Source: Massilia antarctica (GTDB taxonomy: Bacteria; Pseudomonadota; Gammaproteobacteria; Burkholderiales; Burkholderiaceae_D). Taken from it: a stretch of 64,000 nucleotides of DNA. Positions within the stretch are counted from its first letter, which is position 1, and every line of letters starts with the position of its first letter. Of the stretch, positions 51,681 to 61,962 are shown one piece after another. The position numbers were made by a program, and so were the translations under genes. The stretch is taken from contig NZ_CP065053.1 in the NCBI RefSeq assembly GCF_015689335.1, positions 4,960,001-5,024,000 of the forward strand, in the 5' to 3' direction. A model generated the notes under the pieces. It saw only the letters and a list, made by a program, of their open reading frames with translations. It made no database searches and was not told the origin of the DNA.

Positions 51681-52061
51681 TCAGCGGTGGCGCCAGCCGC
51701 GCCCCACATACGCGCTCCCGCGGCCGCCGTGGCCCCAGTAATGGCCGAAGCCAAATCCCAGGCTCAGCGTGACCGGCGGATAATAATAGGCGGGCTCCTC
51801 GATGTACACGGGCGCCGGCACGTACACCGGTTGCGGCACATACACCCGCTCCACCACCGTCACCGGGCGCGACGAATACTCGACACGCGAGCCGGTGGGC
51901 GAGGCCGCGGCCACGCGCTCGCCGGTGCCCGGCGCGACCGGGGTGACCGACACCACGTGCCACTGGGATGGGTCGGACGGCTGGGCGTAGCGCGGGGACG
52001 CAGGGTAGGTGGCGCAGCCGCCCAGTGCGGCCAGGGCCCCGATCAGTAACAGGTTTTTCAT
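51681..52061 (-). CDS. Small lipoprotein with Tyr/Pro/Val repeat-like body
   Basis: 126 residues. A lipobox (ALGGC) follows a 13-residue signal. The mature part is rich in Tyr, Pro and Val (VERVYVPQPVYVPAPVYIEE) and ends in Gly/His-rich sequence (GFGFGHYWGHGGRGS), typical of outer-membrane lipoproteins of the YXWGXW type. Function unknown. Confidence 0.8.
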   Translation of the reverse strand: MKNLLLIGALAALGGCATYPASPRYAQPSDPSQWHVVSVTPVAPGTGERVAAASPTGSRVEYSSRPVTVVERVYVPQPVYVPAPVYIEEPAYYYPPVTLSLGFGFGHYWGHGGRGSAYVGRGWRHR

Positions 52062-52169
52062 GGCGGTAAACTCCTCATGCTCATGCTATCACTATAGGCA
52101 AATGGCGCATAGCGGCGCGCCTAATTACACGTTGTTACAACGATGGCGAGAGGTGAAACTTTATTGTCG

Positions 52170-52198
52170 TTGACACCTTCCTACATGTACACTATGGA
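52170..52198 (+). promoter_or_regulatory. Possible promoter of the Ser/Thr kinase gene
   Basis: TTGACA (52170-52175) and a weak -10 TATGGA (52193-52198) are 17 bp apart. They lie 23 bp before the GTG start. Confidence 0.35.
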
Positions 52199-52220
52199 AA
52201 TATTTTTATAACCAAATGAC

Positions 52221-54395
52221 GTGGAGCGCGATTTGCAGGTGGATGAGCAAGAACTGGGTCATTATCGGCTGAAGCGTCTGTTGGGTGAGGGTGGCTTCGG
52301 GCAGGTATACGAGGCCTGGGATTCCAAGCTCCAGCGTACCATCGCCATCAAGCGACTCAAACCGCAATTGCTGTCGTCGCGGCCGGACAACCTGCTCGAC
52401 GAAGCGCGGCTGGCCGCGTCCCTGCGCCATCCGTGCTTCGTGCGCATTTTCTCGATCGAGGGCGATAGCGCCCAGCAATCGATCGTCATGGAATTCGTCG
52501 ACGGCTGTACCCTGCGCGAAGCAGGCAAGAGCGGCCCGATGTCCGAGGAGTCGGTGCTCGACATCGTGGCCCAGGTGGCCGACGCCATGCGCGAAGCCCA
52601 CGCCGCGCGCTTGATCCACGGCGACATCAAGCCGGCCAACCTGATGCTCGAAGCGTCCGGCAAGGTGCGCATCATGGACTTCGGCCTGGCGCGCAAGATC
52701 GATCCGCAGGCGACCGAATCGGTGGTGTTCGACCAGACCGAGGGCACCATCGCCTACCTGGCGCCGGAATTGATGATGGGCTCCACCCTGAGCGCGCAAA
52801 GCGATGTGTATTCGCTCGGCGTGGTGATGTACGAGCTGCTCACCGGCACCCGTCCGTTTTCGCACCTGAGCGGGCTGGCGCTGGCCGCGGCCCACATTCA
52901 GTCATCCTCCGGCCTGTGGCCGTTTCCGGCCGAAACCAGCGCCGGCGTGGTCGCGCTGGTGCGCGCGATGACGGCGCGCCAGGTCGAGGACCGGCTCCCC
53001 TCGATGCAAGCGGTGCAGGAGGCGGCGCTGGGCCTGCGCCATCCATCGCCAGCAGCGGAGGCACCGGCCACGCCGGCGGGCGCAGACGCGGCGCTCTGGT
53101 TCGGCCGGAACAAGGTGCGCATCGCCATGGTCGTGGCCGGGCTCGCGCTCGCGGCCGGCCTGGGCGGCGTGCTGCGCGGCGGCGGCCTGGGCGACTGGTA
53201 CCAGCGCAACGATCCCTTCTTTTCCGAAGCGACGGCGATGCAGACCGGCCTGACGGCGCTCAAGACCTTCGAACGTCCCGAAAGCCTGGACCTGGCAGTG
53301 CGCAGCTTTTCCGCCATTCTCGCGCACGATCCGAACCATGCTGGCGCCGCCGCCGGATTGTCGTTCGCCTACTGCTTCAAGCAAACCAGCGAACGGCGCG
53401 ACGACGCCTGGCTCAAGCGCGCCGATGCCAGCGCCCAGCTCGCCATCAAGCTCAACCCCCAGCTGGCGCTGGGCTACGCGGCCCAGGCCATCGTGCGCTC
53501 CGGCCAGCGCAGGCTGCCGGAGGCGCTGACCTTGGCCGAGCATGCCTTGCGGCTCGACCCGCTCAACTGGTTCGGGCTCATTGCCAAGAGTAACGTTCTG
53601 ACCCGCGCGCGCCGGTTTGCCGAGTCCGAGCACACCCTGCGCGAAGCGATCAAACTCTATCCGGCCGACCATGTGCTGCAAGACTTGCTGGGCACCATGT
53701 TTTACGAGCAGGGGCAATTCCAGAATGCCGAGCAGGCTTTCCGGCGCAGCATCAAGCTGCAGCCGGATACGGTCAATTCCTACGCCAACCTCAGCCTCGC
53801 CTTGCAGCGCCAGAACCGCATGGATGAAAGCCTGCAAGTGTTGCAGCAAGGCTTGCAGGTGCGTCCCACGGGCGACCTCTACACCAACCTGGGCAATGCC
53901 CTGTTCAACCGCGCCGATTACGTCGGCGCGGCCGAGGCGTTCGAGCGCGCCGTCGCGCCCCCGTTCGCGAGCCATTCCGATTATCTGCGCTGGGCCAACC
54001 TGGGCGACACCCTGCGCTGGATCCCGGGACGCGAGGACGAGTCGCGCAAGGCTTACCGCCAAGCGCTCGGCATACTCAAGCCGCTGGTGGCCGAGGCTCC
54101 GGGCGACCCGACCTTGCAGTCGCGCATGGGACTGTACGAGGCGCGCCTGGGCGAGCGCGCACCGGCGCTGGAACATACCCGGCGCGCCGTGGAAATGCGC
54201 GCGGATGATGCCAACCTGCGCTTTCGCGCCGTCATGGCCTATGAGCTGCTGGGCGAGCGCGACCGCGCCTTGGCGGAATTGGCGGCGGCGCGCCAGCGCG
54301 GCTATCCCGTCCATCTCATCAACGCCGAGCCCGACCTGATCGGACTGCGGCGCGACCCGCGCTACTTTGATTCCACCACAGAAAGTGACAAATGA
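52221..54395 (+). CDS. Membrane Ser/Thr protein kinase with TPR domain
   Basis: 724 residues from a GTG at 52221. The kinase domain covers ~13-275: Gly loop LGEGGFGQVYEAWD, Lys in IAIKRLKPQ, catalytic loop HGDIKPANLML at residues 133-143 (HGD in place of HRD), DFGLA and the APE-like TIAYLAPEL. One membrane helix at ~300-320 is followed by about 400 residues of TPR (for example AEQAFRRSIKLQPDTVNSYA). The C-terminal TPRs are thus on the periplasmic side, suggesting a sensor. It overlaps the next gene by 4 bp (ATGA), and the converging gene is an FHA-like/sigma-54 activator, a likely target of phosphorylation. Confidence 0.93.
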   Translation: MERDLQVDEQELGHYRLKRLLGEGGFGQVYEAWDSKLQRTIAIKRLKPQLLSSRPDNLLDEARLAASLRHPCFVRIFSIEGDSAQQSIVMEFVDGCTLREAGKSGPMSEESVLDIVAQVADAMREAHAARLIHGDIKPANLMLEASGKVRIMDFGLARKIDPQATESVVFDQTEGTIAYLAPELMMGSTLSAQSDVYSLGVVMYELLTGTRPFSHLSGLALAAAHIQSSSGLWPFPAETSAGVVALVRAMTARQVEDRLPSMQAVQEAALGLRHPSPAAEAPATPAGADAALWFGRNKVRIAMVVAGLALAAGLGGVLRGGGLGDWYQRNDPFFSEATAMQTGLTALKTFERPESLDLAVRSFSAILAHDPNHAGAAAGLSFAYCFKQTSERRDDAWLKRADASAQLAIKLNPQLALGYAAQAIVRSGQRRLPEALTLAEHALRLDPLNWFGLIAKSNVLTRARRFAESEHTLREAIKLYPADHVLQDLLGTMFYEQGQFQNAEQAFRRSIKLQPDTVNSYANLSLALQRQNRMDESLQVLQQGLQVRPTGDLYTNLGNALFNRADYVGAAEAFERAVAPPFASHSDYLRWANLGDTLRWIPGREDESRKAYRQALGILKPLVAEAPGDPTLQSRMGLYEARLGERAPALEHTRRAVEMRADDANLRFRAVMAYELLGERDRALAELAAARQRGYPVHLINAEPDLIGLRRDPRYFDSTTESDK

Positions 54396-55015
54396 AGAAA
54401 CCGACATCCATGCTTCTGGAAGCTAATTTCGACATTAACCAGATCGGCGAAACCCTGGAATGGAAGTTCAGCCGCAAGGATGGGGATGGCAACCCCGTCA
54501 CCGGCCGTTACGCCGGCGCCATCTACTTCACCATGGGCGAATTGGTGCACATCAAGGTGCGCGCGGGCGGCTACGAACAGTTCGAATCATTCAAGGTGCT
54601 CGACTGCTCGCTGATCACGCGCCCGCAAATCGTCTGCATCGCGCCCGGCCAGTTGGCCGCGTATGCCAGGCCGTCGCCCTTCGATGGCGTGGCCGGCGCC
54701 TGCGTGAGCGTTGCGGCGGACGAATTCGGCCCGGGCCATGCCCATGCGAGCGAGGAAGGCGGACGCAAATACCACACGATTTCCCGCAAATGGGACCAGT
54801 TCCTCACCGTCGGCGACGACAGCGGTCGCTGGGAAGTCTCGTTCGTGCTGACCGTCGAAATCACGCGCTGCTCCGGCAGGCAGGAAAGGCGCGTGTTCGC
54901 CTTCGATCCTGAAGGCGTGGTCGGCGCCGGCGTGACCCCGCCCGACATGGATGACAGCGGCGACGGCATGGCGTGCATGCCCGAAGGCGATGTCAACGGC
55001 GGCGTGCCGGCCTGA
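54392..55015 (+). CDS. Protein of unknown function coupled to the Ser/Thr kinase
   Basis: 207 residues from an ATG overlapping the kinase stop. No signal peptide. It is beta-rich (EWKFSRKDGDGNPVTGRYAG, IYFTMGELVHIKVRAGG, KWDQFLTVGDDSGRWEVSFV) and ends with the acidic stretch DDSGDGMACMPEGD. I do not recognise the fold. Coupling to the kinase suggests a partner or substrate. It ends 9 bp from the converging activator gene. Confidence 0.78.
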   Translation: MKKPTSMLLEANFDINQIGETLEWKFSRKDGDGNPVTGRYAGAIYFTMGELVHIKVRAGGYEQFESFKVLDCSLITRPQIVCIAPGQLAAYARPSPFDGVAGACVSVAADEFGPGHAHASEEGGRKYHTISRKWDQFLTVGDDSGRWEVSFVLTVEITRCSGRQERRVFAFDPEGVVGAGVTPPDMDDSGDGMACMPEGDVNGGVPA

Positions 55016-55024
55016 TCGGCCAGC

Positions 55025-56596
55025 TCAGCTGGTGCCAGTATCCAGGCCGAGCACCCGCAGATGGCGGCGCAGCGCCTCGCTCGGGGTTTTGAGGCGCGAG
55101 GCGCAGCGGGCCAGGTCGCCGCCATCGGCGCGCAAGGCGGCGTCGAGTTCATCGCGCGGAATCAGGGCCGCCGGGCGGATCGCCGGATGCGCTTCGATCA
55201 GCTTGTACAGCGATGGCCGCGACAAGCCCAGCTGCTGGGCCGCGCCGCTGATCTGCCAGCCGTGCTCCTCGAGCGCGCCGAGCAGGTCGTCGTTGCTGAT
55301 CTCGGCCAGCTTGCGGCGTGGGGCCGCCTCGGACGGCTCCTTCAGGCTGGCGCTGCGCGCTGGTTCGAAGGGGGCCGCGAGGCTGGCGCTGGCCGAGCGC
55401 TGCGGCGCCGCCGCCTGCACGTACTGCGACAGCAGCGGACGCTCGCCCGCCTGCAGCGCCATCACCATGCGCCGTGCCACGTTGGACAACTGGCGGATAT
55501 TTCCCGGCCAATCGTAATTACACATCTCGCTCACCAGCGCGGGCGGGAAGGCGGCCAGCTCCTCGGCGCTCAAGCCGCAGCCTTTTAACATGTGCAGCAG
55601 CAGCACGCCGATATCCTCGCGCCGTTCGCGCAGGGTTGGCACCCGGATCACGAACGCTTCCATACGGCGCAGCAAAGGCTGGTTGAACCCGCGCGCGTCC
55701 AGATCCTGGTCGGTGGCGGCGATCAGGCGCGCCGTGGTGCGCGCATCCTGGCTTGCGCCGAGCGGGCGGTAGCAGCCCGTTTCCAGCACCCGCAGCAGCA
55801 TCGGCTGTACCGACGCCGGCGTGTCGCCCAGTTCGTCGAGGAACAGGGTGCCGCCGTCGGCTTCGGCGAACAAGCCCTGGCGCGGCGCCTGCGCGCCCGT
55901 GTAGGCGCCCTTGGCCGCGCCGAACAGGTCGGCCGCGGCCAGCGACTCGCTCAGGGTCGCCATGTTCACCGCCACCAGCGGATTGGCGCTGCGCTTGCTG
56001 GCCTGGTGGATCGCGCGCGCGGCCACATCCTTGCCGGTGCCGGTCTCGCCCAGCAGCAGCACGGCCAGGTCGGTGCCCGCCACCTGGCGGATCAGCTCGC
56101 GCGTGGCGATGGCGCCGCTGCTCACGCCCAGCAGGCCGGGAAACAGGTTAGGGCGCGGAAAACTCGTCATCCAGTGCAGGCACAGCAGCACATGGCCGCC
56201 CAGGCCCAGCACCACGCCGGCGGCCACGTCCTCGCGGCTGAAGCTGCGGGTGCCGCTCAGCAAGGTGCCATTGACTTCGAGCGCCATGCGGCTGTCCGGC
56301 GCGGCCAGTTCGACACTGTCGCTGGCGGTGCGGCGCACCATCAGCGGCGCGCGCGCGATGGCCCGGTGGCCCAGCGCGATGCCATCCTGGCCGGGACGGA
56401 AGAACAGCGGCGCGTAGCGGCACACCTCGATCGCGCCTTCCTCGGCCGGGCCGATGAATTGCTCGCCGATGCGCTCGGTTTCCGGATGCCACAGGATCGT
56501 CAGTCCCAGCAGGGCACTGGTGATGCCATTTTTCTGCGAGAAAAGCTGCGTCGTCAGCGTGTTATCAACATCATTCACCGTTCGGCTCCATGGCAC
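55025..56596 (-). CDS. Sigma-54 dependent transcriptional activator with FHA-like N-terminus
   Basis: 523 residues from a GTG at 56596 (GTG 56578 is possible). Residues ~40-140 are beta-rich with an FHA-like layout but no certain pThr-binding signature. The AAA+ domain (~155-375) has Walker A GETGTGKD, the sigma-54 contact loop as GAYTGA (Phe to Tyr) and Walker [10 protein letters not shown]. Two Fis-type HTH units follow ([20 protein letters not shown] and the C-terminal [20 protein letters not shown]). It presumably binds the dyads at 56645 and 56731 and activates the promoter at 56817. Confidence 0.92.
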
Positions 56597-56644
56597 AGCG
56601 TTTAGTAATTGCTAATTATAGAGCAAGGTTGCCAATTGTTGACA

Positions 56645-56666
56645 TGTAAAGAGCTGGCGCTTTACA
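56645..56666. promoter_or_regulatory. Activator-site dyad 1
   Basis: TGTAAAG-N8-CTTTACA (56645-56651, 56660-56666), an exact copy of the arms at 56731, embedded in ACATGTAAAGAGC which is also repeated. It lies ~49 bp upstream of the activator start and ~170 bp from the -24/-12 promoter. A further half site (TTTTACACGT) follows at 56671. Confidence 0.8.
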
Positions 56667-56730
56667 CGTGTTTTACACGTTTCGGCCCGCATCCCCTGCG
56701 GCGGCTTTCGGATCATCTTGCCTTCGGACA

Positions 56731-56752
56731 TGTAAAGAGCCCTTCCTTTACA
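56731..56752. promoter_or_regulatory. Activator-site dyad 2
   Basis: TGTAAAG-N8-CTTTACA (56731-56737, 56746-56752) with the same arms and the same 8-base spacer as dyad 1, and the shared ACATGTAAAGAGC context. Centres of the two dyads are 86 bp apart, and dyad 2 is ~84 bp from the sigma-54 promoter, so the three sites are almost evenly spaced. Confidence 0.8.
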
Positions 56753-56816
56753 CGCTCGTTGACATGTTTTTCCTTGTAAATCAAGGAATTGCCATGTCAT
56801 TGACGCACTTATCAGT

Positions 56817-56833
56817 GTGGCACGGGAGTTGCT
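56817..56833 (+). promoter_or_regulatory. Sigma-54 (-24/-12) promoter
   Basis: GTGGCACGGGAGTTGCT holds the -24 GG (56819-56820) and -12 GC (56831-56832) 12 bp apart, matching TGGCAC-N5-TTGC. Expected start near 56844, giving a ~52-nt leader to the ATG at 56896. The 299-bp intergenic region holds the promoter, the two dyads, and no other gene. Confidence 0.85.
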
Positions 56834-56895
56834 ATGTATCAAAGGGTAGCCTTGTCGGGCTGCAAATAGCTAATCAGCAAGAGAGAGTAGGAAAC

Positions 56896-57720
56896 ATGGG
56901 TATCGTGATCGAGAGTTATGCATTTGTTGGCGTGGCAACCCGGGCAACCGGGCCGACGGCCCAGGTATGGCTGCCGCCCGGCTTTACCTTGACTGGCGGC
57001 GGCGCCTACGACATGGGCCGCGGCACCTCGAACACCCTGACCGCCTGCTACCCGACCCGCAACTACGCCGGCGTCTTCAACGGCTGGACCGCGGCCGGCC
57101 GCGATTTCGGCCTGGCCGACCCGGTGCCGCTGGCGGTGTACGCGGTCGGCATCCGCATCACCCGCGACGGGGTGCCGGTCAAGGTCGAGCAGCAAGTGTT
57201 TTCGGCCACCAGCGCGCTGGTGTCGGAACCGGGTGTGAGCGTCAAGCTCGGCGCCGGCTGGATCGGCACCGGCGGCGGCGCCCAGGATAACTACGCCACC
57301 CCCGTGAACGGCAACATGCTCACCGCCAGCTACCCGTTGATCGGCGCCGACGGCAAGATCTGCGGCTGGAGCGCCGCCGGGCGCGACCACGACGCGGTGG
57401 ACCAGGCCCGCGTGACTGCCTTCGTGATCGGCATCCGCACCGGGCCGGACGTGGCGCTGGACGCCCACATCGTCTCGAACACCAGCCTCCTGACCGGATA
57501 CCCGAGCGCGCTGGTGGCCGCGCCGCGCGGCAATGCCGTGGTGGCCGGCGGCGGCGCGCTGGTGGGCGAAAACGGGCGCGGCACCATGCTGAGCGCCTCG
57601 TGTCCCATCATCAGCAGCCAGGATGGCCGCCTGACCGGCTGGTTCGCCGCGCGCAAGGTGCAAAAATCGGCCCCGCCGAGCGGCATTACCGCCTATGGAG
57701 TCATGCTTGAAGCTGCGTGA
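56896..57720 (+). CDS. Protein with three ~85-residue repeats, unknown
   Basis: 274 residues from the ATG at 56896 with AGGAA at the right distance. Three copies of one module are visible: LTGGGAYDMGRGTSN...GVFNGWTAAGRDF, GTGGGAQDNYATPV...KICGWSAAGRDH and VAGGGALVGENGRG...LTGWFAARK, each ending in a VYAVGIRI/FVIGIRT/YGVMLE-type strand. This suggests a three-bladed or pseudo-threefold beta protein such as a lectin-like fold. There is no signal peptide. It overlaps the haem-protein gene by 26 bp. Function unknown. Confidence 0.85.
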   Translation: MGIVIESYAFVGVATRATGPTAQVWLPPGFTLTGGGAYDMGRGTSNTLTACYPTRNYAGVFNGWTAAGRDFGLADPVPLAVYAVGIRITRDGVPVKVEQQVFSATSALVSEPGVSVKLGAGWIGTGGGAQDNYATPVNGNMLTASYPLIGADGKICGWSAAGRDHDAVDQARVTAFVIGIRTGPDVALDAHIVSNTSLLTGYPSALVAAPRGNAVVAGGGALVGENGRGTMLSASCPIISSQDGRLTGWFAARKVQKSAPPSGITAYGVMLEAA

Positions 57721-58939
57721 CTGGATCCTGATCGCCCTGGCGCTGCTGGCAATGGCGGTGGACTTGCCGGCGCGCGCCGCCGGCGCGGTCGGCGCCAGCG
57801 GCGGCCTGCTGGCCAGCGGCATCCACTCCGACCGCCTGGCGTGGCAGCACTTCGCCGGCATCGTGGCGCCGGCCGGGCACGGCCGGGTCGAATTCGAAAC
57901 CTGGGCGGCCGACGACAACATCTACACCGAGACCCCGGCCTGGCCGGGCGACGACGCCGCCCAGCGGCGCCTGCGCAGCAGCGTGCTGCAGCGCGTGCTG
58001 GCGCCCCATGGCAGCCTTGACGCGCCGGTTGGCGATTGCGGCGCGGTGCTTGACGCCGGCTCGGGCAATTTTCCGGTCCAGGCCCCGCAGCCCGGCCAGG
58101 CGCCGTGCTTCGCGGAGGAAGTCAGGCGCAATCTCGCCACCTACCGCTACATCGTGCAAAACGGGCTCAATACCCAGGCCGGGCTGGCCGCCGCCTACCA
58201 GAAGGCGCAAAGCGGCTGGCGCGTGTCGCTGCCGGAAGACGCGGTCCAGGTCAAGGCCGACTGGGTGCCGGTCGAGACCCTGATCGCCTGGCTGGGACGC
58301 AACGGCGTGCGCCTGACCGGCTCGCAGGTACGCGCCCAGTTCCACACCACCTTCGCACAGGGAACCAGCTTCGCGCTGGTGGCCATGCATATCAGTTCCA
58401 AGGACGCGCCGAACTGGGTCTGGGCCAGCTTCGAGCACCGCCTCAATCCGGGCCGCTGCGACACCATGGGCTGCAACGACAGCTACGGCGCGGCGCGCCG
58501 CACCATCGCCCCGCAGGCCGGTGCGCACAACGGCCAGTACGCCGACTGCGCCAAGACGGCGGCGCTGAAAAAACTGTTCGAGGTCAAGCGCGTGGCGCCG
58601 GCGTGGAACAACTACTGCCTCAAGGCCTCCGAAATCGCGTTTGTGGCGCGCGACGGCACGCCGCTCATGCACGGCAATTCGTTCACCGAGCGGGTCGCGG
58701 CCGGGATCCCGATCAAGCGTTCCTCGTGCATTTCCTGCCACGCCAGCGCGGGTTTCAGCCGCGACGGCAGTGCCTACATCAAGCAACTCACTTCGCACCC
58801 CATGGGCACGGTAAAACTGCCCGCCGATATCGTCGCCAACGATTTCATCTGGGGCATCCTGACAATCAACGCCGTGCCAGTGGAGCAGGCGAAGATCCCG
58901 CATAACCTCGATCGAACGAGGATTACAGCCAGACGATAG
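57695..58939 (+). CDS. Secreted protein with a single CxxCH haem-binding motif
   Basis: 414 residues from the ATG at 57695. A signal peptide (ILIALALLAMAVDLPARA) targets it to the periplasm. The C-terminal region has CISCHASAGFSRDGSAYI, a c-type haem site with the CxxCH motif. Other Cys pairs (GDCGAV, PCFAEE, RCDTMGCND, DCAKT, YCLK) suggest disulfides. Residues NWVWASFEHRLNPGRCDT and WNNYCLK are the best-conserved-looking parts. I do not assign a reaction. An electron-transfer or haem-based enzyme role is an inference. It ends just before a strong terminator. Confidence 0.88.
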   Translation: MESCLKLRDWILIALALLAMAVDLPARAAGAVGASGGLLASGIHSDRLAWQHFAGIVAPAGHGRVEFETWAADDNIYTETPAWPGDDAAQRRLRSSVLQRVLAPHGSLDAPVGDCGAVLDAGSGNFPVQAPQPGQAPCFAEEVRRNLATYRYIVQNGLNTQAGLAAAYQKAQSGWRVSLPEDAVQVKADWVPVETLIAWLGRNGVRLTGSQVRAQFHTTFAQGTSFALVAMHISSKDAPNWVWASFEHRLNPGRCDTMGCNDSYGAARRTIAPQAGAHNGQYADCAKTAALKKLFEVKRVAPAWNNYCLKASEIAFVARDGTPLMHGNSFTERVAAGIPIKRSSCISCHASAGFSRDGSAYIKQLTSHPMGTVKLPADIVANDFIWGILTINAVPVEQAKIPHNLDRTRITARR

Positions 58940-58987
58940 GCGGACGGCGTTCCACCGCGCCTGCCGCTGCACCCTTCGTCTCCTTTT

Positions 58988-59015
58988 ACGCGCACCCAGG
59001 GTGCGCGTTTTTTTT
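58988..59015 (+). terminator. Strong intrinsic terminator of the sigma-54 operon
   Basis: ACGCGCACCC/GGGTGCGCGT form a perfect 10-bp stem (58988-58997, 58999-59008) around a single A, effectively a 9-bp stem with a 3-base loop, followed by eight T (59008-59015). Confidence 0.93.
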
Positions 59016-59037
59016 CTGTAGCGCCTGGCCGCGGCGA

Positions 59038-60054
59038 TCATTTCTCCGGTTCGATGCATGCTGAACTCTGCTTGGACACGTACACGGGATTTTCCTGCCT
59101 GCGGAACTCGCAGTAGTAACTGTATTCGAATTGCCGGAAACCTTTATCCCTGCTCTTTTCGTCGTTGCGGATGAAGGTCAGCACAGCGCCGGGATAGTCT
59201 TTTTTAAGCCGTTCCAGATAGTCATTACAGGCGGCCGTGCGATTGAAGCCGCCTCCGCGCCACTCGCCCCAATCTTTTTTGTGTTCATCGATGGCATAGC
59301 GTTCGATCCCGTGGCTGGGATGCTGGCAGACGGGGTAGGCGGCGCAGGCGGCGGATTTCTTCGATCCCACCCCGGCGGCGCTCAACAGATGCTGGGCGCG
59401 GGCGATCGGAATCACGTAGGTGATCAATTGCCCACGGTCGTTCAATGCCACCGCCATCCCGACCACCGTGCCATATTGCCCGAACACCGGGCTGCCGCTA
59501 TTGCCCGGACTAAATGCCAGATTGGTTTGCCACCACGGCTTGATCTGACCTTCCACGATGGTGTTTTGCGCCGTTTTCTGTCCGCCGGGTACCAGCGCCA
59601 GATCCGCCGAACCGGCAAAGCCGAGTCCGCTCAATGGGGCGCCCACGGCAATATCGCCCGGCGCGGCGATCGTCACGGCCGGCCACGGCGCATTCGCCGG
59701 CGCCGCCGGCAGCTTCAGCAGCGCCAGGTCGGATTCGGGATCGCGCGAGACAATGCTCGCTTCGACGGGCGGGTTGAGCAGGGAGCCGGGGCGCACGGTC
59801 ACCATCGCTGAATTGATCGTCAGGTCCTTCAGTTGCGGGCTGACGACATGGGCGTTGGTCAGCACATGACCAGCCGGCGAGACAATGAATCCGGTGCCAT
59901 AGTCAACGCCGGTGCCGTCGGGCGTGCTGTACTCGTACTTGATATGCACGGTCGCGCCCTGGTTGGCAGTGAACAGGCACTGCATGTCCTGGGCCGCCGC
60001 GCAGGGCGACAGGACAGCGAACACGGTCCAGCAAAAGCGAATTCGCGTGCTCAT
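59038..60054 (-). CDS. Secreted trypsin-like serine protease (S1C type)
   Basis: 338 residues. A signal peptide ends near CAAAQ-DMQ. The triad is seen as His (VLTNAHVVS), Asp (RDPESDLALLKL) and Ser (FSPGNSGSPVFG), with GTGFIVSPAGHVLTNAHVV typical of HtrA/DegP-like proteases. There is no PDZ domain. Instead a Cys-rich C-terminal ~100 residues (ACAAYPVCQHPSHGIERYAI, FNRTAACNDYLERLKKDY) follows. It overlaps the upstream NlpC/P60-like gene by 4 bp (ATGA). Confidence 0.9.
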   Translation of the reverse strand: MSTRIRFCWTVFAVLSPCAAAQDMQCLFTANQGATVHIKYEYSTPDGTGVDYGTGFIVSPAGHVLTNAHVVSPQLKDLTINSAMVTVRPGSLLNPPVEASIVSRDPESDLALLKLPAAPANAPWPAVTIAAPGDIAVGAPLSGLGFAGSADLALVPGGQKTAQNTIVEGQIKPWWQTNLAFSPGNSGSPVFGQYGTVVGMAVALNDRGQLITYVIPIARAQHLLSAAGVGSKKSAACAAYPVCQHPSHGIERYAIDEHKKDWGEWRGGGFNRTAACNDYLERLKKDYPGAVLTFIRNDEKSRDKGFRQFEYSYYCEFRRQENPVYVSKQSSACIEPEK

Positions 60055-61715
60055 TTGCGCTCCCCTTCATTGCTCAGGGTTATACGCCGCAGCGGCTTGT
60101 ATCCGGCCTGCTGCAACTCGCCCTGCGTGTACGACCTGCGGCACACGCCCCCGCACGATTTGTTCGCCGCCGATTCGATGACGACCACCACCGGTCCCGC
60201 CGGCCCGTTGTGAACCGACTCGACCAGGCGCACATGGCTGCGCGGTTTGTTGACGATATCCGCCGGAGACAGTTCGTGCCAGAGCACCGGCCTGCTCACG
60301 GCTCGGTCGGGAAGGCTGCCGGTGGTGAAGTAGCGCCCGGTTTGCCATGCGTAGGAAACAAAACCCGAGCAATCCATCCCCGTACTGTTGGCATAAACGC
60401 AGTTGACCTTGCGGCAGGTGCAGTCGTCCCCGGCGAGCCGTCCCGCGTCGAGGTGCTTGGAGAAATTGGCCAGCGCACTCATGTAGCCGCCCCAGCGGTA
60501 AGGCATGCCGGTGACATCCTTGCCGAGCATGCCGTCAAGGCGGAGCGGACGACGCCATATGTTTGACGGCGGAGCGCACCGGTTGGCGACGGCGACGTGC
60601 TCGAACGCGCTCGCCTTCAGGCGCCACACCAGTTCCAGCGGCGCGCGGGCACGTTGCAGGATCTGGCTGGCGCTGATGGATGTCATGGCGATATTTGTGG
60701 CGCCGGAAACGCCATTGAGGCGTTCGAGTGCGCGCAAGGTGTCGTCGTGTTCCGCGATGAGCGTCGCACCGGCAGGATGTGGTCCGAGTGCCAGCGGCTC
60801 GGCTTTGCCCACCGGCGAAAACTGGATGATATCGAGCTTGATGGTGTTGTCCTGGAAAACCAGGCTGACGACCGTTCCGTCGGCGCGGCGCGCGTATGGG
60901 CGGCGGGTATCGCAGGCGAAGGCAGCAGGGCGGACATAGGCTTCGGCGTGCGCGGCGCCGGCGGCATCGACCTTGAGCAGGCGCACGTAGGCAGCCTCGT
61001 GAGGCAGGCGCCGGCTCTCGTGCAGCGCCACCAGCGCACCTTCGCCTTCGTTGACCCACAGGACCCGGGCGTCGACGATGCGCATGCGCGACTTGAGCGT
61101 CATTGTTGAAAGCGGGCCGGCCACCTGAGCCGATGCGATGACGATGGTCGTCGGATCGGTATGCGGTGCCGTCGCGGCATACGACGCGGCGGCGGCCAGG
61201 TTCGCAACCACCGGCGTCCCTGTCTGCAGTGCCGAAAGCGGCACATTGACCCGCTTGCCATTGAGGTCGTCGAGCGCAAAGCCGTCCGCCAGCGCGATCA
61301 GGCGCGGCACGCCCGCCTCGGGATCGTGGCCGGTGCGCGTGCGCGCCAGCACGTCGCCCTTCGCGCTCACCATCGCGACCTCCCCAAGCGCCCCGACAAC
61401 CAGGAAGCCGCGTGAAGTGGCAATGACATCGACCGGTTCGAGGAGGTCGGCCGGTAGCGCGATGTCGTGCCTTCCTGCGGCTGCCACCACGACGATCTTC
61501 CCGTTGACCTTGTCGAGCAGCGCCGTCGCATCGTCACCGGCGGCGACCATGGCGGCCGGTCCCTGGCAGTCCTGGTTGGGATGCATCTCCAGGCCGATCT
61601 GGCCAGGACCTGCCCCGACTTCCAATGCCATGGCGGCAGGCGCTTGCGCATATCCGTACAGCGAAACGGCCATCAGGCAGGCCGGCAGGACGAAGAAACA
61701 GGAAAGATTGCACAC
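60051..61715 (-). CDS. Secreted NlpC/P60-like protein with large N-terminal domain
   Basis: 554 residues from a GTG at 61715, which has AGGAGG 4 bp upstream. A signal peptide (FFVLPACLMAVSLYGYAQA) is followed by ~370 residues of strand-rich sequence without a named domain (VDVIATSRGFLVVGALGEVA). The C-terminal NlpC/P60-type domain holds catalytic Cys (STGMDCSGFVSYAWQTGRYF) and His (KPRSHVRLVESV). It is likely an amidase or endopeptidase on cell-wall or other amide substrates. It is the first gene of a two-gene operon with the protease. Confidence 0.82.
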   Translation of the reverse strand: MCNLSCFFVLPACLMAVSLYGYAQAPAAMALEVGAGPGQIGLEMHPNQDCQGPAAMVAAGDDATALLDKVNGKIVVVAAAGRHDIALPADLLEPVDVIATSRGFLVVGALGEVAMVSAKGDVLARTRTGHDPEAGVPRLIALADGFALDDLNGKRVNVPLSALQTGTPVVANLAAAASYAATAPHTDPTTIVIASAQVAGPLSTMTLKSRMRIVDARVLWVNEGEGALVALHESRRLPHEAAYVRLLKVDAAGAAHAEAYVRPAAFACDTRRPYARRADGTVVSLVFQDNTIKLDIIQFSPVGKAEPLALGPHPAGATLIAEHDDTLRALERLNGVSGATNIAMTSISASQILQRARAPLELVWRLKASAFEHVAVANRCAPPSNIWRRPLRLDGMLGKDVTGMPYRWGGYMSALANFSKHLDAGRLAGDDCTCRKVNCVYANSTGMDCSGFVSYAWQTGRYFTTGSLPDRAVSRPVLWHELSPADIVNKPRSHVRLVESVHNGPAGPVVVVIESAANKSCGGVCRRSYTQGELQQAGYKPLRRITLSNEGERK

Positions 61716-61962
61716 GTTACCTCCTGGAAATAATCGCTGCCCGGGCCGGGCAGAACTCCAGACTAACAGCAAGGACGTGCTGATAACGTCGCTAAATATT
61801 GACGTAGATCAGGTCGACTGACTTGAAAATGTACTAGGTACGCATCAAAAACGAAGGGAATTTGTTGCTCAGCTTCAGGCGATAATGCGTCTGTCGCTAT
61901 ACTTGAGCCTCAATTCCCCCGCCGTCCCTTGGCCAACCTCTGTTATCAGGAATCGATTCGCC

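Follow-up and report, generated by a model that had tools for sequence, protein, structure and literature searches.

A candidate Ser/Thr kinase and sigma-54 activator cassette with exchangeable outputs, seen at a Massilia antarctica locus encoding a predicted PCSK9 V-domain-like protein

Sigma-54 activators with an FHA-type N-terminus are generally regarded as tied to Ser/Thr kinases. Such FHA-domain enhancer-binding proteins have reportedly been described in Myxococcus by Jelsbak, Givskov and Kaiser in 2005. In the ComQXPA system of Bacillus, the polymorphic block comprises the signal and the sensor part of the kinase, the remainder of the locus being conserved. The signalling genes of this pherotype locus are called strikingly polymorphic in PMC4408185, and type VI secretion systems (T6SS) are presented in PMC10482370 as combining PpkA-Fha threonine phosphorylation with VasH-type sigma-54 activators. 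Here we analyse a locus of Massilia antarctica contained in a stretch of 64,000 nucleotides (the window; positions 4,960,001-5,024,000 of a 7.43-Mb genome assembled as a single contig), where the genes of a Ser/Thr kinase (K) and of a partner protein (U) are convergent with that of a sigma-54 activator (A), itself divergent from two output genes (R and C). Checks of the sequence, open reading frames and motifs of the window found every element named in a preliminary description of this DNA in its place. We consider it likely, on comparative sequence evidence, that K-U-A is a reusable signalling cassette in which K, by way of phosphorylation, switches A, which in turn drives R from a sigma-54 promoter.

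R was found in ten of 60 genomes surveyed (that of M. antarctica included) and U in the same ten plus one. K, U and A adjoin R in all ten (in pieces in G006, a frameshifted assembly), in keeping with the earlier proposal of one signalling module with a sigma-54 output operon in which kinase and activator travel with R; the expected co-occurrence did not extend to C, which is full length beside R in only four of the ten. Matches to A at E 1e-60 occur in 27 of 195 genomes of the family (36 matches), the M. antarctica genome holding four A proteins of this type, and in a 398-genome sample of the phylum, with nine candidates or fewer scored per listed genome, A was seen in M. antarctica only. Among 399 genomes of the order, U was present in three others, belonging to two other families, and in each K and A are arranged around it as in the window.

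Altogether, 41 A loci were read: the 36 family matches, the orthologues L012 and L017, and three order-level loci. L016 and L100 are the same contig and were counted as L100; in L017, from a frameshifted assembly, no A match exceeded 250 bits and the A pieces came from a separate comparison; for L154, L155 and L157, the lack of GAYTGA was judged on the whole frame, and their Walker B motif is FLDK-type. K is convergent with A in 32 of the 41 loci, and in 29 of these a U-like protein separates the two, although the match in L113 is weak (22.7 bits); leaving out five of the 36 family matches, all of one subtype without K, makes this count 32 of 36. Other cassette copies adjoin a radical-SAM peptide-type cluster, LodB-like flavoproteins, contractile-injection genes or a MACPF protein. 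Weighing against a fixed cassette are seven A copies of an LFLDK/VFLDK Walker B subtype (L051, L117 and L153-L157) with no kinase within the stretch read, L116, with none on its 7.3-kb contig, L050, whose K and partner are co-directional at a distance of about 8.4 kb, L102, L104 and L105, where no U-like protein was seen, and L055, a genome in which U and K were detected but A was not. The kinase of L098 is about 6 kb away. Judged from gene neighbourhoods, the unit is a K-U-A cassette with exchangeable outputs and not a single circuit contained in 7 kb, as had been proposed: K-U-A recurs beside other outputs, and C is not part of the core.

Several loci depart from this pattern in their activator. 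The kinase-less subtype (L051:9202-10656, L117:9255-10721 and L153-L157) is without GAYTGA, has FLDK instead of FLDE in its Walker B motif and is probably sigma-54-independent; in L051 it follows kdpE, kdpD and kdpB (KdpE and KdpB exceed their NCBIfam cut-offs, and KdpD scores 1089 bits where 1123 are required), and this subtype is perhaps a kdp regulator. Kinase and partner are kept in L106, L107, L108, L111, L112 and L114, where the GAFTGA loop is degenerate and an operator-like palindrome is present in five of the six; sigma-54 dependence may have been lost there. At L050:5100-6400, a second near-consensus -24/-12 element (6355, minus strand) is followed by an unusual, repetitive reading frame in which CGQ/IVQPIGEIVLMVYAVWAAPC-like units recur, possibly repeated peptide cores.

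K (52221..54395, plus strand) is a protein kinase (Pfam Pkinase, E 5.9e-51) with C-terminal TPRs, whose motifs IAIK, HGDIKPAN and DFG provide the catalytic Lys, HxD and DFG of Hanks-type Ser/Thr kinases, the HGD form indicating a non-RD type. Because it has a single hydrophobic segment (residues 299-317), a cytoplasmic kinase domain with periplasmic TPRs is the natural reading; of the membrane kinase with periplasmic TPRs previously put forward, motifs, repeats and segment were thus all recovered, but two of eight K proteins examined showed no hydrophobic segment at the threshold used. U (54392..55015, plus strand) shares 4 bp with K and matched no family of Pfam or NCBIfam, consistent with its earlier portrayal as a kinase-coupled protein without known family; against PDB sequences it gave two chance-level matches only (E about 0.6). 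Family comparison shows that its relatives end in (F)DPE..VG, and U and the shorter partner proteins of other cassettes appear related (hhalign probability 74.8, E 2.6e-5). Ahead of K, a promoter-like TTGACA-N17-TATGGA (52170..52198, plus strand) holds ACATGTACA in its spacer, kept in seven of nine aligned loci, which may hint at feedback, more weakly than the arrangement at the A promoter described below.

A (55025..56596, minus strand) matches Sigma54_activat (E 4.2e-49) and HTH_8 and has the AAA+ domain with a GAFTGA-type loop (GAYTGA), Walker B motif and Fis-type helix-turn-helix (HTH) of a sigma-54 enhancer-binding protein, and so is the convergent activator first described. An in-frame GTG at 56578 is the likelier start because the match begins at that codon in L010, L011, L013 and L014. 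Its N-terminus (residues 28-143; 56168..56515, minus strand, from alignment and model) is modelled as a confident beta domain whose best PDB sequence match is 3gqs, which we take to be an FHA domain (E 0.0038, in FHA register). Pfam FHA was seen in one of 27 A N-termini (E 0.083), and the FHA-like character is only weakly recognisable in sequence; fold comparison of the A model covered only the AAA part, its list being filled by AAA+ chains with none titled FHA among the 50 matches listed.

In the 3gqs register, itself resting on a weak match, the canonical phospho-Thr set of Arg, Ser, His and Asn is incomplete in the 27 sequences. The FHA Asn position is Met in all 27, the SxxH motif has lost its His, and 11 of the 27, among them the A of the window, carry Ala in place of the Ser, all of which counts against a textbook FHA domain; an invariant Arg (Arg60) is present. 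The suggestion that the FHA-like N-terminus reads Thr phosphorylation is thus not supported by the sequence, the canonical Asn and His being missing. The loss of these residues, together with the seven LFLDK-subtype copies standing without K, would fit a different arrangement, in which A drives R but K does not act through the A N-terminus: the FHA-like domain, devoid of phosphopeptide binding, would sense a metabolite or protein, or K would phosphorylate A elsewhere or only U. K-A linkage is nonetheless tight in 32 of the 34 other loci, across families, and we regard this alternative as rather unlikely.

The DNA between A and R carries two strandless dyads with identical 7-base TGTAAAG arms and 8-base spacers that differ in sequence, namely operator 1, TTGACATGTAAAG-N8-CTTTACA (56639..56666; dyad at 56645-56666), and operator 2, TGTAAAG-N8-CTTTACA (56731..56752), followed by an exact -24/-12 promoter, TGGCACG-N4-TTGC (TGGCACGGGAGTTGC; 56818..56832, plus strand). 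Dyads, equal spacer lengths and promoter are as initially reported, and the spacing of about 85 bp given for them measures 86 and 87 bp. A further strandless half-site, TTGACATGT, lies at 56759..56767. The pattern TGTAAA-N10-TTTACA, for which 0.00 occurrences are expected by chance in the window, is found genome-wide at these two places only, versus one place for a reversed control. Since chance alone would give 1.26 matches to -24/-12 in 64 kb when one mismatch is tolerated, the weight of the promoter rests on place and conservation, TGGCA and TTGC being kept at the same spacing in ten of ten orthologous A-R regions; the 20 exact genomic occurrences (8 for the reversed control) are weaker evidence taken alone, and four of them lie in the three loci with a K-U-A cassette (the window, L049 and L050).

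At least one exact dyad is present in eight of the ten orthologous intergenic regions, and both in three. The arms of the second dyad change together in most relatives while the spacers vary, AAAG...CTTT of the window being AAAT...ATTT in L009, L010, L011, L013 and L015. To be set against this are the first dyad, imperfect in L010, L011, L013 and L015, and the second dyad of L053, whose arm ends are mismatched. When k-mers were counted with no motif given in advance, in 25 non-orthologous A-upstream regions from which nine orthologues and two LFLDK-type loci had been excluded, the list was headed by overlapping words forming ACAYGTMAA, with a few unrelated words lower down; CATGTCAA occurs in seven of the 25 regions (0.18 expected) and ACGTGTAA in five (0.05 expected). 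In each window dyad the ACATGT and ACACG cores stand 22 bp apart. The element is better described as ACAYGTMAA half-sites or palindromes, so that of the operator first claimed the dyads are real and go with A, but their 22-bp form is only one arrangement. In one genus (L106, L108, L111, L112 and L114), an exact intergenic palindrome, TTTACATGTAAA, lies upstream of the gene preceding A in four of five loci, the fifth having an 11-of-12 form.

Each whole stretch read was scanned for an operator at most 450 bp upstream of a near-consensus -24/-12 element. Of 32 non-orthologous loci, 11 have such a pair; all of them belong to the 19 whose A has GAYTGA, and none to the 13 without it, which ties motif, A and sigma-54 together. 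The associated p values (0.006 on the first 27 loci, which did not include L017; 0.0006 by Fisher test on 32) are only indicative, the score cut-off and motif pattern having been chosen after the loci were seen; the 13 loci without GAYTGA go back to a small number of independent losses, and eight of the 19 with it have no pair in the DNA read, all of which tempers the association. A is predicted to bind the dyads; TGTAAA...TTTACA resembles the TyrR box, as it might if another regulator bound the dyads and A acted elsewhere; given that the motif recurs beside A or its neighbours across families and that palindrome and dyad are rare in this genome, we hold this to be very improbable. A sigma-70-type promoter-like site of A (56615..56642, minus strand; one found versus 1.4 expected in region shuffles) overlaps the operator 1 region with its -35, which suggests autoregulation. 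Elsewhere in the same genome (L135, about 1,659,917), an exact -24/-12 element with CATGTAAAAAG just upstream and CATGTCAAC at -270 precedes the gene of a putative secreted protein, a possible further regulon member.

In the mechanism that we favour, the TPR half of K and U would sense a cue and set kinase activity, and phosphorylation would switch A either directly or via a phosphorylated partner met by its FHA-like domain. A would then, with support from the sequences, recognise phased ACAYGTMAA elements, both those overlapping its own promoter-like site (possible feedback) and those upstream of -24/-12, and by means of its GAYTGA loop open RNA polymerase-sigma-54 at that promoter, the output being R, a PCSK9-tail-like beta-prism, plus, in some species, the probably exported C. 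The gene order, the kinase and sigma-54 motifs, the operator-promoter architecture and their conservation are features of the sequences themselves; that K phosphorylates A or U and that the FHA-like domain takes part is what we infer from them.

R (56896..57720, plus strand) more likely starts at ATG 56896 than at GTG 56668 and is a true triple repeat, with GGGA at residues 34, 127 and 218. The V-domain of PCSK9 and the apicomplexan APC-beta domain are double-layer beta-prism comparators (PMC6294395), and the R model displays the pseudo-threefold beta-prism fold of these domains. Full-length PCSK9 entries gave Foldseek TM-scores of only 0.51-0.59. Among the solved structures ranked, PCSK9 alone fitted the predicted fold well, apicomplexan perforin domains doing so weakly; an R profile had no match among PDB sequences up to E 10. 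R probably binds a surface, membrane or protein. An sCache match of R, below cut-off, was dropped after the fold result.

C (57695..58939, plus strand) shares 26 bp with R, opens with a hydrophobic stretch resembling a signal peptide, contains a single CISCH motif and is probably exported; an intrinsic terminator with a 9-bp stem and T run follows (58988..59008, plus strand), so that the operon of a triple-repeat protein, a secreted-type CxxCH protein and a terminator is as first outlined. In three of the ten R genomes, an in-frame deletion of C leaves a 64-residue frame made of the signal-peptide region and about the last 12 residues, the terminator being kept, and in three more C is absent from the locus, G006 among them having a relative elsewhere. 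The unnamed C family is broad (562 relatives among 8,000 candidates scored; 69 and 54 for R and U), which, with its full-length presence beside R in so few genomes, makes C an accessory outside the core. The end of C and the following bases (58899-58950) contain a CCTCG-ATCGAA-CGAGG hairpin, conserved as DNA in three relatives without the rest of C and possibly a 3' RNA element; a search of 51900-59200 found nothing credible in Rfam (one match, E 0.87). Convergent with the operon, a trypsin-like protease gene and an NlpC/P60-like gene (59038-61772) are matched in L009 and not in L010-L015 or L017.

Comparison of relatives revealed a diverged block covering K past its kinase domain and U (52941..55015, plus strand, approximate boundaries). 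Between L010 and L013, DNA identity is 68-81% from +900 to +2700 (counted from the start of K) and passes through intermediate bins at the edges to 88-97% on both sides, the dip spanning about +600 to +2700. Synonymous divergence (dS) between them reaches 1.26 in the K 3' half and 1.01 in U, whereas the kinase domain has 0.20 and A, R and two flanking genes have 0.17-0.22. As dS does not rise when constraint is relaxed, the likely cause is that the block was exchanged or that its diversity has long been kept. L011 and L015 represent one type, with 89% identity in both the K sensor half and U and 61-69% to the others. Such a block, with its shared types and raised dS, could mean that the K sensor half and U recognise each other as a matched pair, U being ligand or specificity partner to the receptor, selected for differing types as in Bacillus ComQXPA, and not a fixed-cue receptor. 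One exchange would, however, move the adjoining K 3' half and U together even if they did not interact, no hydrophobic signal-like segment is present in U and the K sensor half is not hypervariable in another genus, which leaves this a minority possibility. As a general property, hypervariability of the sensor block did not hold up in eight pairs of other cassettes. In six of them conservation of the K sensor half is similar to or higher than that of the kinase domain, and in L123-L124 and L103-L109 it is lower; U identity falls to 42-53% in four of the eight. More speculatively, and with little expectation that all of it holds, the K TPR half and U may be a swappable pair, a Ser/Thr-kinase counterpart of a pherotype, controlling lineage-specific surface or antagonism genes via A and sigma-54, with R, the product at this locus, binding cells or membranes as a single-domain bacterial relative of the PCSK9 tail.

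In the cassette, bacterial Ser/Thr phospho-signalling would take a form that is both modular and portable and whose DNA code can be read: K-U-A and ACAYGTMAA sites point to the controlled operon, including radical-SAM peptide-type and LodB-like genes, the diverged block offers a natural allele set for testing what such kinases sense, and R is a simple bacterial protein with a predicted PCSK9-tail fold. An anti-phage defence role was considered and rejected, K and A matching PADLOC models only over widely shared kinase and AAA/HTH regions and U, R and C giving no match at E 1e-5. No paper describing a K-U-A module was recognised by title or abstract start among the matches listed, in a search outside of which most subscription journals lie. 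The statement that no described system has this set of parts stands for the cassette in the literature searched but not for its activator, FHA-domain sigma-54 activators being already known as a kind from Myxococcus; what appears new is the K-U-A variant with a PCSK9-like output and a diverged sensor-partner block.

Among known systems, R differs from PCSK9 and APC-beta in being a stand-alone bacterial protein (12% identity), and the cassette, which has polymorphic signalling genes in common with ComQXPA, differs from it in that K is a Ser/Thr and not a His kinase and that secretion of U is only hypothetical. With the T6SS PpkA-Fha and VasH proteins (PMC10482370) it shares a Ser/Thr kinase, an FHA or FHA-like protein and a sigma-54 activator around antagonism genes; here, in contrast, the FHA-like domain is fused to the activator, and general Pfam and NCBIfam scans found no T6SS families among the window proteins scanned. 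Like the Myxococcus FHA activators, A is a sigma-54 AAA+ activator, with an N-terminus that is FHA-like; unlike them, it has a domain without the canonical Asn and His, a fixed convergent order with K and U and its own operator, and K-U-A was found, in the genomes sampled, within one bacterial order only.
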